Part shown: piece by piece, positions 3,579 through 22,163 of the stretch | How positions within the stretch are numbered: position 1 is the stretch's first letter | Layout: each line of letters starts with the position of its first letter | DNA from: a virus | IMG/VR virus record: IMGVR_UViG_3300027777_000164 | Coordinates: 1 to 22,652 of that record | Length of the DNA: 22,652 bases | Strand: one strand, 5' to 3' | Position numbers and translations under genes: made by a program | Notes under the pieces: generated by a model | Databases searched by the model: none | Seen by the model: only the letters and a program-made list of their open reading frames with translations | Told to the model about the DNA's origin: nothing

Positions 3579-6500
3579 TTACGCTGATACATCGCCACTT
3601 ATTACCCAACCAGCGTAAGCACCGGTATAAACAATAGTTGCTACAGAATACTGCTTAGTTGTTCTATAATAGCTGTTAGCTTGATTGATTGTTACACCAG
3701 CTGATGCACTTGAAAGTGAAACCCTTGCTGTACTAAGCTGAGTAACATATGTTCTAAATCCAGCAGGGTATGTGATACCAGACGATGGTAAAGCTGTAAG
3801 ACCAACATTACTTGTTGAAGCAATTGTACCGCTATTATCAGATAATTGAATTGTATAAGTTGTACCGCTTAATACTGTAATTGTTGTGCCACCAAAAATA
3901 TTACCACCAACGGTAAGATTACCTGTTATATTAACATTTCCTTGCGCACTTACGTTGTTTGTATATGTGTAGTTAGCAGCTGTAGCACTTAAACCAGTAC
4001 CTAAGATAAAAGTATTTGGATAAGCTGTGTAGTTTGCTGAACCACCAGCAATGAATGAATACGTGCCTGAGGATGTATTGTTGTAACCACCTACGATAGC
4101 GTTATACGAATTTGAAGCATTATTACATCTACCACCGCCGATGTAGGAATAAACACCGGAAGCTGTATTACCGAGACCACCACCGATAACCGCCCAAGCA
4201 CTTAAAGCTTGGTTACCAGAACCACCATTAATATTTGAAGCTAATCCAGTAGCAAGATTGCACTGACCACCGGCAATAACTGAATATTGACCTGAAGAAG
4301 TATTGTTACCAGAAGCAGGTACTATTGCTGTTGTAACCCCGCCAGTAGTGTATGGAAAATTCGATGTTGATGCTGCAGTGGCAAAAGACGATAGACTATT
4401 TGACAACGATATAACAGCTGTATTAATAGTATTAATACAGGTATTAATTGTATTGACACAATTATTAAATGTTGTCGATGTAGTAATATTGTTTAAATTA
4501 CTACCATCACCGAAGTACGTTGTAGCAAATACAGCACCAGGTGTTGAAAGATTGTTTACGTAAGTAAAATTGACTTGTCCAGCACATAGATTGGAACCTA
4601 AAATGAAAGTATTTCTAAATCCATTCGTTGTATTGCTACAACCACCGGCGATAAAGGAATATACGCCCGAAGCTGTATTACATAAACCACCATCGACAAT
4701 TGAATAATTACCAGAAGCTGTATTTGATCTTCCGTTATTGATTACTGAGAATTGACCACTTGCGTTATTACCGCCCTGAACTGGTTGTACAGAATATGTA
4801 CCGGGTCCAACTACATAAACTGTATTACCACCAACGTTTCTTAAATTCGAACCATCACCGTAAATTGCTGCAGCGCTAATATTACCTGTTGTTGTAATTG
4901 TTGTACCGCAAATAGATCCATTAGCTACAATTCCATTTGTGTAGGTTGTATTAGGTTGAGTTGCAACAATATTTGAACCAAGAACAAATGAATTTATAAC
5001 ATCAAAGTTGATGTAATTTGCTGAACCACCGGCTATGAATGAATTACAACCGACGATTGTATTACAACATCCACCAGCTATTGTTGAATTGGCACCTTGT
5101 ACAATATTACTAACACCACCAGCAACAACAGAACCGTTGCCTTGAACTGTGTTGTAGAAACCACCAGCTATTGTTGCGTAGACATTGCTAATAGTATTAT
5201 AATATCCGCCATTAATATTAGAAAAAGAACCAGTAGTGATATTATTGCACTGACCACCTTCAATGATATTGAATCTACCAGATACATTATTACAATTACC
5301 GCCACCAACAACAGTATATGGACCTGAGGCTGTATTACCAAATCCGCCACCAATTACTGCGCCTGTACCGGAACTATTATTACCACATCCACCATTAATT
5401 ACAGAAAATTGACTTGTAATAACGTTATTAGTACCACCCTCAACATTTGAATTACAACCAGTAACAGTATTGCTACCATACGTTGGTACAATTGAAGACA
5501 GGGCTGAGTTTGCTGTATAACCAATAGCTTTATTATAGAGATTACCAGTTGCTGAAATATCACCAACAACAGTTAACGCAACGTTTGGTGTAGTTGTTCC
5601 AATACCAATATTACCCTGACTTGTTACTCTAAAACGCTCACAAGCACTAAGTGTACCACCGGTATGGAAGAGAAGACTATTTGCCGTAGCTGTACCAATC
5701 GCTAGGTTACCGCCATTTATAAACAAATAACCGTCATTTGCAGCTGCAACACCATAGGCTGAATTACTATAAGCACTATTGTTAATACCAAGATTAACGA
5801 AATTTGATGAACTACCGCCATTATCAGCTGTTGCAACAAAATCTGTTGAAGCGTTAGTTCCAGCACATAAGTTTTGACCTGCAAATTGTAGATATGTATT
5901 AGAGCAAGTAGTGAATTGACCGACAGAATTTCCAAATGTAGGTGTTAGACCGAGAGGGTTTATAGCAAGATAGCCAGTATTAGCACTTAAAGTATTGATA
6001 CCCCCTTGTGAGGAAAGATTGTTTACTATTGTATAATTGGATACAGTTGAGGTGATGTTTGAACCAACTACAAATGCATTATTACCGGTAACATTATTAT
6101 TTTGACCACCTAGCACACTTGAGCAATTGCCAGAAACGACGTTATTATACCCACCAGTAATATTTGATGCACTACCTGAAACAGTATTAAGACATCCACC
6201 GAGTATTACCGCTTGACTTGTACTGGCGGTATTACCATAACCACCGCCAATTACTGAATAATTGCCTGAAGCTGTGTTACCATTACCACCGCCAATAAAT
6301 GAACTTGCACCGGTTGCATTATTATTACCGCCAGCTAGAATACCCGAATTGTTACCAATAGATTGATTACCGTAACCACCAGCGACTATTGAATAGTTAC
6401 CAGAAGCGTTATTACCATAACCACCTAAATCTGCCGCCCAATTACCTAAGGTGGTAATACCATAAGGATTTAATAAATTACCAATACCTGATACACTAGG

Positions 6501-8072
6501 AACTAATACAAGAACTTGTGCTGAAGCTTGTGCGTATGTTGTGTTATTATATGTCGGGTTATTTGTTGCACTTGTCGCAGCGACATAATTTGCTGCAGCA
6601 ACTGTACTATTCCAGCTAGCACTATTTGTATTAACTGTTGTATATGTATTGTTCCAAGCTGCACTGTTACTATTAACATTTGTATAAACATTATTACCAA
6701 TAGTATTAACAAGATTTGAACCATCTCCAAAGAATTTACCGTAAACAGTACCTTGTGAGCTAAGGTTATTTACATATACGAAATTAGCTTGTGAAGCACT
6801 GAGATTTGAACCAAGAATAAAGGTATTAGCAAACCCACTATCATTATTTGCAGATCCTGCTGCAATAAATGACGTATTACCTGAGACAATATTGTTGTAA
6901 CCACCGGCAATGTGTGAATAACTGCCTGCAGCTATGGAGCTTCTACCACCATCAATACTTGAATAGGTACCTGATGCTGTGTTATTCAATCCACCACCGA
7001 TAACGGCACCTGAGCCCGAGGCGATATTGCCAAGACCACCTACAACAACAGATGTATAATTAGTAGCGTAGTTTGACTGACCACCTACAACAGTCGAACA
7101 ATTTCCTGATGCAATATTTGCACACCCGCCAGCAACATTTGATGTCTGACCGGTAGCTGCATTTAATTGACCACCAGCGATATTTGAATAAAGCCCTGAT
7201 GCAATATTTTGATAACCACCGAGAACGGTATTAAAGGCTGATAGGGTCTGGTTACCATAACCACCACCAATATTGGAGTAGATACCAGATGCTAAATTAT
7301 TACAACCACCGACTATATTTGCGTAACAACCAGTTGCATTATTACCAGAGCCTGTTCCAATAAAAGTATAGCCACCGGAAGCGTTATTTGATGCACCGCC
7401 ACCTATGTTTGAATAATTTCCAGATGCAATATTACTCAAGCCACCTACAATACTTGAATAGTTATTTGTAACTTGGTTGCTATTACCGCCTAAAATTGAA
7501 TTATAATTACCAGATGCAGTGCTATTACCAAAATTTGGTGTAATCAGAGTACCGCTTAATATAAAGGTCTGACTTGATAGTTTAAGGTATGTTGTACTGA
7601 ATGAGGATGCTAGTGAGTAGGCTGTATTCCAGTTAGCAAAACCAGGCCCGTAAAGTGTTCCAAGAACACTCAAGCTACTTACGACTGTAGTATTTGTTGT
7701 AAAATCGTAAATTGGTACAGAGCCGTTTGTATATGGTGGATCTCCAAGATAGTTATTAAAGGCATCGTATTGGAGTCGAGATACAGGAATAGCGTAATTT
7801 ACACCGCTTAATTGTACAATGAGAGAATTTGTTGGTACAAAACTTGCATTCGCAGATAATACCGGCTGTGGTATGCTAATATTTGAGAGTGTATAGTAAT
7901 TTGTAAAAATTGAACCTGAGGCACTAAGATTACCTTGGATAACAAAATCTCCCTGAAACGGCTCAGCGTATGAAGCAATAGGATCTGTTGCAGAATCAGG
8001 ATAACCAGCTGTCGGGTTAGAGTGATGATTCTTTCTATGAAGCTTATTATGGAACCGGGCGTTGTCGGACAT
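3579..8072 (-). CDS. Giant repeat-built tail fibre protein with YadA-head-like beta-roll repeats
   Basis: The protein is 1497 aa. Most of it is 14-16-residue repeats of the form NNASGxYSxIxGG, arranged in about five blocks (roughly residues 180-420, 545-700, 880-1075, 1115-1195, 1290-1390). Most blocks are closed by a recurring module NTFILGSNLSA...YVNNLSSQG, often followed by FGDGSNL. A GNIGIGTTTPNVALTV motif occurs near residue 820. The last ~100 residues form a distinct non-repeat domain ending GAYAGWVISGDVSA. The repeats resemble the left-handed beta-roll of YadA-type trimeric adhesins, so a trimeric fibre is inferred. Many YSNI positions carry Cys instead (GCYANIVGGC), which is odd for an extracellular fibre. 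It shares modules with the partial fibre gene at 1-2488. A late motif lies 9 nt upstream of the ATG. Confidence 0.85.
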   Translation of the reverse strand: MSDNARFHNKLHRKNHHSNPTAGYPDSATDPIASYAEPFQGDFVIQGNLSASGSIFTNYYTLSNISIPQPVLSANASFVPTNSLIVQLSGVNYAIPVSRLQYDAFNNYLGDPPYTNGSVPIYDFTTNTTVVSSLSVLGTLYGPGFANWNTAYSLASSFSTTYLKLSSQTFILSGTLITPNFGNSTASGNYNSILGGNSNQVTNNYSSIVGGLSNIASGNYSNIGGGASNNASGGYTFIGTGSGNNATGCYANIVGGCNNLASGIYSNIGGGYGNQTLSAFNTVLGGYQNIASGLYSNIAGGQLNAATGQTSNVAGGCANIASGNCSTVVGGQSNYATNYTSVVVGGLGNIASGSGAVIGGGLNNTASGTYSSIDGGRSSIAAGSYSHIAGGYNNIVSGNTSFIAAGSANNDSGFANTFILGSNLSASQANFVYVNNLSSQGTVYGKFFGDGSNLVNTIGNNVYTNVNSNSAAWNNTYTTVNTNSASWNSTVAAANYVAATSATNNPTYNNTTYAQASAQVLVLVPSVSGIGNLLNPYGITTLGNWAADLGGYGNNASGNYSIVAGGYGNQSIGNNSGILAGGNNNATGASSFIGGGNGNTASGNYSVIGGGYGNTASTSQAVILGGCLNTVSGSASNITGGYNNVVSGNCSSVLGGQNNNVTGNNAFVVGSNITSTVSNYTIVNNLSSQGGINTLSANTGYLAINPLGLTPTFGNSVGQFTTCSNTYLQFAGQNLCAGTNASTDFVATADNGGSSSNFVNLGINNSAYSNSAYGVAAANDGYLFINGGNLAIGTATANSLLFHTGGTLSACERFRVTSQGNIGIGTTTPNVALTVVGDISATGNLYNKAIGYTANSALSSIVPTYGSNTVTGCNSNVEGGTNNVITSQFSVINGGCGNNSSGTGAVIGGGFGNTASGPYTVVGGGNCNNVSGRFNIIEGGQCNNITTGSFSNINGGYYNTISNVYATIAGGFYNTVQGNGSVVAGGVSNIVQGANSTIAGGCCNTIVGCNSFIAGGSANYINFDVINSFVLGSNIVATQPNTTYTNGIVANGSICGTTITTTGNISAAAIYGDGSNLRNVGGNTVYVVGPGTYSVQPVQGGNNASGQFSVINNGRSNTASGNYSIVDGGLCNTASGVYSFIAGGCSNTTNGFRNTFILGSNLCAGQVNFTYVNNLSTPGAVFATTYFGDGSNLNNITTSTTFNNCVNTINTCINTINTAVISLSNSLSSFATAASTSNFPYTTGGVTTAIVPASGNNTSSGQYSVIAGGQCNLATGLASNINGGSGNQALSAWAVIGGGLGNTASGVYSYIGGGRCNNASNSYNAIVGGYNNTSSGTYSFIAGGSANYTAYPNTFILGTGLSATAANYTYTNNVSAQGNVNITGNLTVGGNIFGGTTITVLSGTTYTIQLSDNSGTIASTSNVGLTALPSSGITYPAGFRTYVTQLSTARVSLSSASAGVTINQANSYYRTTKQYSVATIVYTGAYAGWVISGDVSA

Positions 8073-15104: not shown

Positions 15105-15191
15105 GGGTCATTATACTATTAAAGACATAGCTCGGACTGTAAATCCGATGTTCATTGAACTGGCTAGGAGCGTTACCTAGATGGCCCACCA
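15105..15191 (+). tRNA. tRNA-Tyr (GTA) with non-canonical elbow
   Basis: Acceptor GGGTCAT/ATGGCCC, anticodon arm TCGGA-CTGTAAA-TCCGA, long variable arm GTTC-ATT-GAAC, T-stem CTAGG/CCTAG, discriminator A and encoded CCA. The T-loop is AGCGTTA instead of TTCRANN. The D-loop (TAAAGAC) has no GG, and four rather than two bases join acceptor and D-stem. It shares the T-loop type with the tRNA-Ile at 17641. Confidence 0.75.
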
Positions 15192-17108: not shown

Positions 17109-17554
17109 GGGGGCGTACTGGTTTCGACTTATACTCGGAGTTTGTACAGCATGCAGTAGTTAATCTGTGGCTACTTAAAAACGGATTAAAACATAAATGC
17201 AAAGACTCAAGTCAGCGCAATCCTTGCTAAGTTCAAGAAGGCAGTAAACACAATTACAGAGTTTTGTCTCTGTGATGAGGTTGCTCCTTTAGCACTCGCA
17301 GCCTAAGGAACCAGAAGCAAATCCTATTAAGCTTTTGGAAAAATAATAGGTTAAAGAAGGTCTTGTGATTCTCAAAAAATAAGTGCAAGGAGTTATGCAG
17401 AGCTCTTCCATCTGCATAGGTAGGACTATAAACATAGATAGGTTGATAACGCCTTGTTACCTAGAGTCAACGAAAGTACGAAGCTTATCTAAGCATGTAG
17501 AAGTATAAATAAAAAAGTATAAACACAGGGGTTCGACTCCCCTCGCCTCCACCA
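17109..17554 (+). ncRNA. ssrA: tmRNA (transfer-messenger RNA) with a 35-residue tag
   Basis: The RNA is 446 nt. The 5' GGGGGCG pairs with the 3' CGCCTCC, followed by ACCA. A TTTCGAC element lies near the 5' end, and the T-arm is GGGG-TTCGACT-CCCC. PK1 is GTAG/CTAC with TTAATC/GATTAA, and PK2 is CCAGAAGC/GCTTTTGG with CCTATT/AATAGG. The resume codon is GCA at 17199 (position 91; position 90 in E. coli). The tag frame starts AKTQVSAILAKF, ends DEVAPLALAA and stops at TAA 17304-17306, which lies in a TCCTT/AAGGA hairpin (H5). The tag is 35 aa against the usual ~10, with an extra ACAGAG/CTCTGT hairpin within its frame and a Cys-Leu-Cys. It rescues stalled ribosomes; whether the phage tag directs proteolysis is unknown, though the ALAA end suggests it does. 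Confidence 0.93.
17504..17511 (+). promoter_or_regulatory. Internal TATAAATA inside the tmRNA 3' part
   Basis: A perfect late motif followed by AAAAA then G17517, with TATAAACA close behind (17518-17525). It could start RNA for the downstream tRNAs, or may be only part of the tmRNA H2 region. Confidence 0.35.
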
Positions 17555-17561
17555 ATTTAAT

Positions 17562-17635
17562 GCCCGGTTAGTTTAATGGTAAAACGGTTGATTTGTAATC
17601 ATCAAACAAGAGTTCGATTCTCTTACTGGGCTCCA
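17562..17635 (+). tRNA. tRNA-Thr (TGT)
   Basis: Acceptor GCCCGGT/ACTGGGC, D-arm GTTT/AAAC with a GG loop, anticodon loop TTTGTAA, T-arm AAGAG-TTCGATT-CTCTT, CCA encoded. The anticodon stem GTTGA/TCATC has a U-U mismatch at its second pair. It lies 7 nt after the tmRNA. Confidence 0.9.
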
Positions 17636-17640
17636 ATTTT

Positions 17641-17714
17641 CCTCTGATAGTTTATTAGCAAAACCAGCGATTGATAATCGCTAGAGCGAGGAGCGTAACC
17701 TCGTCAGAGGACCA
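17641..17714 (+). tRNA. tRNA-Ile (GAT) with non-canonical elbow
   Basis: A full cloverleaf: acceptor CCTCTGA/TCAGAGG, D-stem GTTT/AAAC, anticodon arm AGCGA-TTGATAA-TCGCT, T-stem CGAGG/CCTCG, ACCA encoded. The T-loop is AGCGTAA (no TTC) and the D-loop ATTAGCA has no GG. The T-loop matches that of the tRNA-Tyr at 15105 although the stems differ, which argues for conservation rather than decay. Confidence 0.8.
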
Positions 17715-18089: not shown

Positions 18090-18647
18090 CAATTTGACTA
18101 GGCGCAGGTCTTGAAAGCTAAAAGACTCCCGCGATAGGTGATAGCGAAGCATTCGGCCGAGTGAACGTGTAGCCTGTAAGATAAACCTCCGCGAAAGCGA
18201 ATGAGATTTTCTAGTCATACAAATTTGATTACTGCGTATAGTTCTCGGTAGTAGCAATACTAGTCCGAAGCCGCGGGTAAGAGCGAAAGCTCTAAACTTC
18301 CTAGCTCCGATAGGCCAGTAATCATTACAATTAAGTTCCCGCGTTGTAGGTATAATCTGCGGGAGAGATACGTTGAGTTGTCTGCTGGTAAGTTAGTAGA
18401 CGTATCTTAAGAGGGGGAGCCAAAAACTTACATACAGCTTTGATCCCTTGCTTTATTAAACACAGACTGGACGGCGCGCTGGCTCCATGCCGGTACCCGT
18501 TGAGGAAAGAACAAAATCCGGAACAAAAGCTTTTCAACTACCACAAATTTCTTTAGTAATGCTACCAGTTGCCGGTCTCAAGTCCGGAAAGGAATCGCTA
18601 TCCCTAAAATGCAGAGAGCAAAGAAAAGAAAGCAGAGTTCGAACTCA

Positions 18648-18680
18648 CCCCTATTATCCTGATCAGGTAGTAGGGGTTTT
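18648..18680 (+). terminator. Intrinsic terminator of the large RNA
   Basis: CCCCTA/TAGGGG outer pairs and CCTGA/TCAGG inner pairs, with a small bulge, followed by TTTT. Confidence 0.8.
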
Positions 18681-18697
18681 CTGTGTTTAAAAACGAT

Positions 18698-21677: not shown

Positions 21678-22163
21678 ATGACAAACACAATAACACCATA
21701 CACGATTGGCAGGGTCATTCCTGCTACAGCGACGGGATTCAGCCATCTCCCAGCGTTGTTTAACGATAAGTGGCTAACCGATGTCATTAAGGACTTCGAT
21801 AAAGCATTTGATATTCCAAATGCAGTCTATCCTTATAACATCGTATCAGAAACCGATTCAGACGGAAATCCAGTCACCTACTACATCGAAGTAGCATTGG
21901 CTGGAGTAGGAAAGGATAATATCAACGTATCGGTCAAGGAGGGTAAGCTCGTGATCGCTGTTGATAAGGAAGAGGTCGAATATGATGAGACAGTAGTCTT
22001 CCATCGTAAAGGCATTAGTCGTAGAAAGGGACAATTGTCCTTCTCTCTTAATGACAATACGGACGTTAAGAACATCTCATCAACATACACAGACGGGTTA
22101 CTACGAGTTAAGGTCCCGACAGTGAAACCGGAGGTACACAATATCAGTATCGAGGTTAAATAA
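21678..22163 (+). CDS. hsp20: Small heat-shock protein Hsp20/IbpA family
   Basis: The protein is 161 aa. An N-terminal arm (1-50, with YPYNIV at its end) leads to the alpha-crystallin domain: YYIEVALAGVGKDNINVSV, GKLVIAVDKEE, VVFHRKGISRR, LSFSLNDNTDVKNISSTYTDGLLRVKVP. This matches the IbpA-like pattern (IEVALAG, RGIA.R.F, GLL.V). A C-terminal IxI-type anchor may be ISIEV. It acts as an ATP-independent chaperone. Hsp20 genes are a hallmark of T4-like marine phages, where they may protect virion proteins during assembly. It has a consensus late promoter, a 62-nt leader and SD AAAGGAG 7 nt before the ATG. Confidence 0.92.
   Translation: MTNTITPYTIGRVIPATATGFSHLPALFNDKWLTDVIKDFDKAFDIPNAVYPYNIVSETDSDGNPVTYYIEVALAGVGKDNINVSVKEGKLVIAVDKEEVEYDETVVFHRKGISRRKGQLSFSLNDNTDVKNISSTYTDGLLRVKVPTVKPEVHNISIEVK

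Follow-up and report, generated by a model that had tools for sequence, protein, structure and literature searches.

The locus and its tRNA genes

The window, i.e. the whole stretch of DNA analysed here, is a 22.7-kb IMG/VR record and is tailed-phage-like, as judged from a structural protein of the virion with relatives in cyanophages. The following features of its tRNA genes are referred to below:

15105..15191, plus strand: tRNA-Tyr(GTA) with a long variable arm (not called by ARAGORN)
17109..17554, plus strand: tmRNA (109.7 bits), upstream of the tRNA-Ile in the same cluster
17562..17635, plus strand: tRNA-Thr(TGT) with a canonical elbow, beside the tRNA-Ile and a contrast to it on the same contig
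17641..17714, plus strand: tRNA-Ile(GAT) with an alternative elbow and encoded CCA (ARAGORN, loop-blind cloverleaf finder, Rfam)
17654..17660, plus strand: D-loop ATTAGCA of the tRNA-Ile, positions 14, 15, 16, 18, 19, 20 and 21 in the register of a 7-nt D-loop (cloverleaf finder)
17673..17675, plus strand: anticodon GAT of the tRNA-Ile (ARAGORN, cloverleaf finder)
17692..17698, plus strand: T-loop AGCGTAA of the tRNA-Ile, positions 54-60 (cloverleaf finder)

The contacts G18.U55, G19-C56 and U54.A58 at the elbow are treated as hallmarks of tRNAs and are built into tRNA finders. The tRNA-Ile was the top-scoring cloverleaf of the window when loops were ignored, with 21 of 21 stem pairs formed. 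From the acceptor to the anticodon arm it reads CCTCTGA TA GTTT ATTAGCA AAAC C AGCGA TTGATAA TCGCT, and from the variable loop to the 3' end AGAG CGAGG AGCGTAA CCTCG TCAGAGG A CCA. Stems of 7, 4, 5 and 5 bp and the CCA end agree with the Rfam tRNA model RF00005. Both canonical loop signatures were absent from this gene: instead of U54 U55 C56 R57 A58 the T-loop has A54 G55 C56 G57 U58 A59 A60, and instead of G18 G19 the D-loop has A18 G19. Since the changed T-loop goes together with A18, a canonical elbow is excluded and the status as a tRNA is kept. The gene belongs to a class defined here by an AGCRUWA T-loop with A18 G19, the alternative elbow. A truncated mitochondrial tRNA, with the D- or T-arm reduced or missing, was rejected because both arms are complete.

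The tRNA-Tyr has D-loop TAAAGAC and T-loop AGCGTTA, with a spacer of 4 nt between acceptor and D-stem that places the D-stem two bases further in than usual. A preliminary description of this DNA had reported the cloverleaf of the tRNA-Ile with its anticodon and both loops, which ARAGORN and the loop-blind finder confirmed, and also a match of its T-loop to that of the tRNA-Tyr at six of seven positions across differing T-stems (CGAGG/CCTCG against CTAGG/CCTAG), which is as described. The ten other tRNAs found by ARAGORN have UUC T-loops and are canonical, so that two among the 12 tRNAs of the window have non-canonical elbows. For the motif GGAGCGTWACC 0.01 occurrences would be expected in the window, and three were counted, two of them in the tRNA-Ile and the tRNA-Tyr. 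The third (10641) was rejected as a tRNA, as it lacks a T-stem and falls within an open reading frame.

Three states were found for the syntenic tRNA-Tyr: canonical in locus L125, UGCAAAU with AG in L123, and AGCGUUA with AG in L122, L124 and the window. A stepwise order of these states is weakened by a tree in which L124, carrying both exchanges, falls outside the group of L123 and the window, although its placement is unsure. The flanking P0007 gene points to other affinities. The order of the three states is unproven, and replacement by transfer is possible.

Further features of the window were recorded. The noncoding stretch 18094-18690 contains two closed hairpin domains (18094-18217 and 18225-18327). 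At 18553-18622 it has a type-P1 twister-like match that stays below threshold, with 31.1 bits against a gathering score of 67.2. The promoter-like repeat gatctttgatagta precedes both this stretch and the tmRNA, and positions 18343-18680 are conserved in L122 at 79.5%; the stretch is possibly an undescribed phage RNA. A repetitive protein of 1497 residues (3579-8072, minus strand) has no PHROGs match and is probably a fibre or adhesin. A phage-borne Hsp20 gene lies at 21678-22163.

Distribution of the alternative elbow in viruses

IMG/VR was searched with a pattern composed of the anticodon loop, the T-arm and CCA, which matched at least 120 stretches; a full cloverleaf was present at 95 of the 120 matches listed. 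A control pattern in which the T-loop was permuted to GACGTWA matched 49 stretches, none of which held a cloverleaf. A stricter pattern that included the D-loop matched 98 stretches of bacterial genome contigs, with an alternative-elbow cloverleaf in 96 of the 98 loci. Cloverleafs were also collected with a finder that considers stems and CCA only and ignores the loops (score of at least 36, duplicates dropped). It returned 943 cloverleafs in loci L002-L299, a set enriched for AGCGTWA. Dinucleotide-shuffled sequence, 2.79 Mb in total, yielded no cloverleaf.

For a sample drawn independently of the elbow, an Ile(GAT) pattern was used in which both elbow loops were free. It matched at least 120 stretches, of which 116 were examined, and 112 cloverleafs (102 distinct) were obtained in 116 of the matches listed. 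Among these, 61 of the 102 were canonical and 41 non-canonical, mostly AUCGUWA with GG, in a sample that covers one isotype and one D-stem half, is no census and has crude D-loop classes (any GG or AG anywhere in the loop). The preliminary description had proposed a family of such tRNAs and a pattern search over phage genomes. The search returned further examples, so that the outcome of no further examples is excluded, and the family exists and extends further than was claimed. Its members cover many amino-acid specificities. Canonical and non-canonical tRNAs were mixed in 70 of the 102 virus loci with cloverleafs.

The cultured Salicola phage SCTP-2 (L354, MF360958.1) has four non-canonical, covarying elbows among 20 distinct cloverleafs, including U56 with G18 A19; the AGC pattern had no match in this phage, which has other elbow classes. 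Because the T-loop served to select the first set, an artefact of pattern searching or of assembly was considered. The permuted and shuffled controls refute this, and the non-canonical share of the loop-free Ile sample among the matches listed and the four covarying examples in a cultured phage speak against it as well, so that we regard such an artefact as practically negligible.

Stretches of 20-30 kb from the cultured phages S-PM2, S-CREM1, PG216 and Alone3 had UUC T-loops except for one CTCGATT in PG216, and the trait is therefore not general among phages. BLAST searches of alternative-elbow tRNAs or of an array region against plasmids and phages returned no full-length relatives. The alternative elbow occurs in many viruses and some bacteria. 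No account of this tRNA family was found in the literature searched, which left preprints and most subscription journals outside its scope, and earlier notice may exist in the literature not covered.

Covariation at the elbow contacts

The canonical elbow is held by the contacts U54-A58, U55-G18 and C56-G19 (PMC7912444). In the 943 loop-blind cloverleafs the D-loop changed together with the T-loop, a linkage that the preliminary description had missed. Of 485 UUCRA T-loops 481 were accompanied by a D-loop with GG, and of 134 AGCRU T-loops 121 by a D-loop with AG and without GG, AG being also present in the 12 listed with GG. The pairs 18.55 and 19-56 were counted in the 307 cloverleafs with a 7-base D-loop, in which the register is clear. 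Pair 18.55 was A.G in 170, G.U in 128, G.G in four, G.C in two, C.G in two, U.U in one and A.U in none, and pair 19-56 was G-C in 297, A-U in five and another combination in five. Pair 54.58 (n = 943) was UA in 674, AU in 165, GG in 52, CA in 24, AA in 14, CC in 13 and GU in one. When AGCGTWA T-loops were dropped to remove the enrichment bias, 221 cloverleafs were left with 84 A.G, 128 G.U, four G.G and no A.U at pair 18.55; with one row per locus the counts were 52/4/0/34 (Fisher p 1e-20). Mutual information, computed for 21 positions of the loops and core, was highest for 54-58, followed by 18-55 (AGCGTWA included). T-loops with U56 mostly had G18 A19, with exceptions, and classes with a single exchange exist (UGCRA with AG, AUCGUWA with GG). 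On this evidence a supposedly fixed part of the tRNA is swappable. The exchanges are located exactly on the canonical contacts and are therefore read as another route to the same fold.

Alternative-elbow and canonical tRNAs (RF00005) have in common the cloverleaf, CCA, the anticodon loop, identity positions, G19-C56, R57 and G53-C61. They differ in A18, G55, A54, U58 and A60 as against G18, U55, U54, A58 and Y60, and a 4-nt variable loop is common in alternative-elbow tRNAs, unlike canonical ones. Kissing of D-loop TTA with T-loop TAA was dropped, because the standard contacts account for the covariation and the register is lost in the tRNA-Tyr. A core exchange of U8-A14 to A8-U14 (L004, L016, L023, L099) was seen in 11 of 188 non-canonical and three of 100 canonical cloverleafs.

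Non-UA pairs at 54-58 have a working precedent in the A54-A58 of the eukaryotic initiator tRNA (PMC7912444), a pair present in 14 of the 943 cloverleafs; no G18.U55 exchange is described for the initiator in the part of that source used here. Positions 18, 54, 55 and 58, the four that changed, are the elbow modification sites (PMC7912444). The alternative elbow could thus have been adapted to modification enzymes that are missing or different, as a tRNA with A18, A54, G55 and U58 needs no Gm18, m5U54, Psi55 or m1A58 and could mature at once anywhere, from which phages with a wide or unpredictable host range would profit. We consider this rather unlikely; U54/A58 or U55 is retained in the single-exchange classes, and a SAR11 genome described below presumably modifies canonical elbows.

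Neutral drift would place no benefit in the exchanges: host modification enzymes would constrain phage and array tRNAs less, and the elbow would wander among equally stable pairs. Many combinations coexist, often beside canonical tRNAs in one contig, intermediates occur (G18.G55 in 4/307, A54.A58 in 14/943), and variation extends to the outer core pairs 8-14 and 15-48. Some drift at least is suggested by the mixture of elbows in the window and in most virus loci. As an account of the whole, drift is a reading that we take seriously without leaning towards it, given the bacterial observations presented below.

Recovery by tRNA finders

The preliminary description held that such tRNAs would be missed by standard finders, which proved true in part. 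In the window ARAGORN missed the tRNA-Tyr and found the tRNA-Ile; Rfam did not report the tRNA-Ile under default filters and with lax filters scored it at 45.3 bits (RF00005, gathering score 29). Across the related loci ARAGORN recovered 479 of the 481 cloverleafs with a canonical elbow and 285 of the 462 without one. Its recall was 56 of 134 for the AGC class with A54.U58 and 2 of 43 for the class with G54.G58 and G55. The SAR11-type tRNA-Thr(GGT) was missed in five of eight Alphaproteobacterial loci tried.

SAR11 and related bacteria

Of 53 genomes assigned to the SAR11 family, 31 carried an alternative-elbow tRNA-Thr(GGT). A canonical Thr(GGT) was found in none of the 53 with a pattern that matched 113 of 142 genomes of the class, a few of these 113 possibly by chance; genomes of the SAR11 and HIMB59 groups are often single-cell or metagenome assemblies, so that absences are weak. 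In the order of a HIMB59-type genome 19 of 32 genomes carried the alternative form. Either SAR11 Thr(GGT) is dispensable (22 of 53 without a match), or those assemblies are incomplete. In 26 SAR11 genomes the gene was identical at 74 of 74 bases, a constancy that argues against drift. The 28 other tRNAs found in the 1.2-Mb SAR11 genome G003 were all canonical, so that modification of canonical elbows is presumably present there, contrary to what an adaptation to missing enzymes would lead one to expect. SAR11 Thr(GGT) is the strongest case for working alternative-elbow tRNAs.

The neighbours of this gene differ between genomes and its surroundings are ordinary genes. Nearby partial copies of tRNA-Thr(GGT) positions 1-38 occur with cargo such as a DNA methylase and helicase, from which the gene is read as an integration site; integration there offers a route of transfer. 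In L577 and L578 (genomes G042 and G038) the 1-38 half copy lies upstream of the tRNA, with T5orf172/DUF4116 genes or an Eco57I-type methylase and PLD/helicase as cargo.

tRNA arrays and RNA-repair neighbours

Dense tRNA arrays of Verrucomicrobia had Pfam neighbours HNH_4, Band_7 and RtcB (L262), RtcB (L203), TROVE (L248), RlaP (L226) and HNH_4 (L204), and the Cyclobacteriaceae contig L264 had Band_7, in a scan of ten proteins picked by eye from 12 loci that is no survey. RtcB, TROVE, RlaP and Band_7 were absent from 10 window proteins searched against Pfam and 10 against PHROGs, the window being a fragment. The Verrucomicrobial genome G226 has two arrays. Outside them 40 tRNA matches were found, 39 canonical and one for which ARAGORN gave no call; inside them none of the 13 cloverleafs returned by the finder was canonical, a count that leaves aside further ARAGORN calls in the arrays. 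In three further Verrucomicrobial genomes the 30 best-scoring tRNA loci were all canonical (34 cloverleafs), a choice that favours canonical tRNAs, so that the array contrast is that of G226.

Drift in a shared cell would not readily give the split seen in G226, and this contrast, like the presence of RNA-repair genes nearby, favours a difference under selection. Both would fit an escape from nucleases or an altered maturation, possibilities that had been suggested in the preliminary description.

The TROVE or RtcB genes near arrays on some Verrucomicrobial contigs could also be taken to indicate tRNA-like RNAs outside translation, such as decoys, Ro60-bound RNAs or processing marks. This appears very unlikely, considering the encoded CCA, the anticodon loops and Ile identity positions kept, the many amino-acid specificities and, in SAR11, the role as the only Thr(GGT) found.

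A comparable arrangement is the silent 26-tRNA operon of Anabaena, which is repressed by TrcR and switched on by translational stress; RtcB, a slipin and an HNH gene are further targets of TrcR repression (PMC10272220). The stress operon of Anabaena PCC 7120 resembles the arrays as an extra tRNA array, and the RtcB, slipin and HNH genes of its regulon match Pfam families near some alternative-elbow arrays. Elbow bases are absent from the part of the account used here (PMC10272220).

Function and meaning of the alternative elbow

The gene, the family and the covariation can be read from the sequences themselves, and on them we base the proposal that the tRNA-Ile is probably a working elongator tRNA in which exchanged base pairs hold the elbow together. 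A18.G55 would replace G18.Psi55 and A54.U58 would replace m5U54.A58, G19-C56 staying as it is. As cloverleaf, CCA end and the positions for Ile identity are unaltered, charging and use by the ribosome would proceed as usual. The positions which we take to specify Ile identity (GAT, A37, A38, A73, C4-G69, U12-A23 and C29-G41) are all present in the tRNA-Ile of the window (six tested in addition to GAT). In 31 distinct AGC-elbow Ile tRNAs, A37, A38 and A73 were present in 31, U12-A23 in 30, C4-G69 in 24 and C29-G41 in 20; the corresponding counts in 105 non-Ile AGC-elbow tRNAs were 90, 95, 63, 39, 35 and 11 for A37, A38, A73, U12-A23, C4-G69 and C29-G41. Given that the identity positions are retained, and given the SAR11 case, the alternative-elbow tRNA-Ile is very probably charged and used in translation. 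The Steinberg group is said to have obtained E. coli suppressor tRNAs from randomised D and T loops in which other elbow combinations can work; those tRNAs came from laboratory selection, whereas the present ones are natural genes.

The exchanges would remove the bases for host Gm18, m5U54, Psi55 and, where present, m1A58, and would alter the surface met by elbow-reading proteins. A second tRNA set could thereby sustain translation when host tRNAs are attacked or limiting. That the benefit consists in independence from, or protection against, factors reading the canonical elbow is conceivable, although we would not yet call it probable; escape from nucleases is plausible. A simple escape model fails to predict the mixed loci and the two non-canonical tRNAs among the 12 of the window.

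Jumbo-phage tRNAs are likewise phage-borne and thought to offset host attack on tRNAs, with the difference that their escape is ascribed to supply (PMC7824862); the terms T-loop and D-loop are absent from the main text of that paper. Work on phage T5 reportedly indicates that phage tRNAs replace cleaved host tRNAs and escape through anticodon-loop changes.

More broadly, we tentatively suggest that the elbow may be a code of three exchangeable base-pair positions, of which phages and stress arrays would use a second version spared by tRNA-destroying defences or toxins for which the canonical elbow is the cue, and that SAR11 and HIMB59-type bacteria may have adopted such a tRNA as their only Thr(GGT). 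Compensated natural exchanges at all three contacts separate the shape of the elbow from its sequence, and alternative elbows account for tRNAs that seem to be lacking in SAR11 and in annotated viruses. They provide ready-made tRNA pairs for testing whether a given nuclease, modification enzyme or translation factor reads elbow bases, and tRNAs with an independent elbow may serve orthogonal translation.
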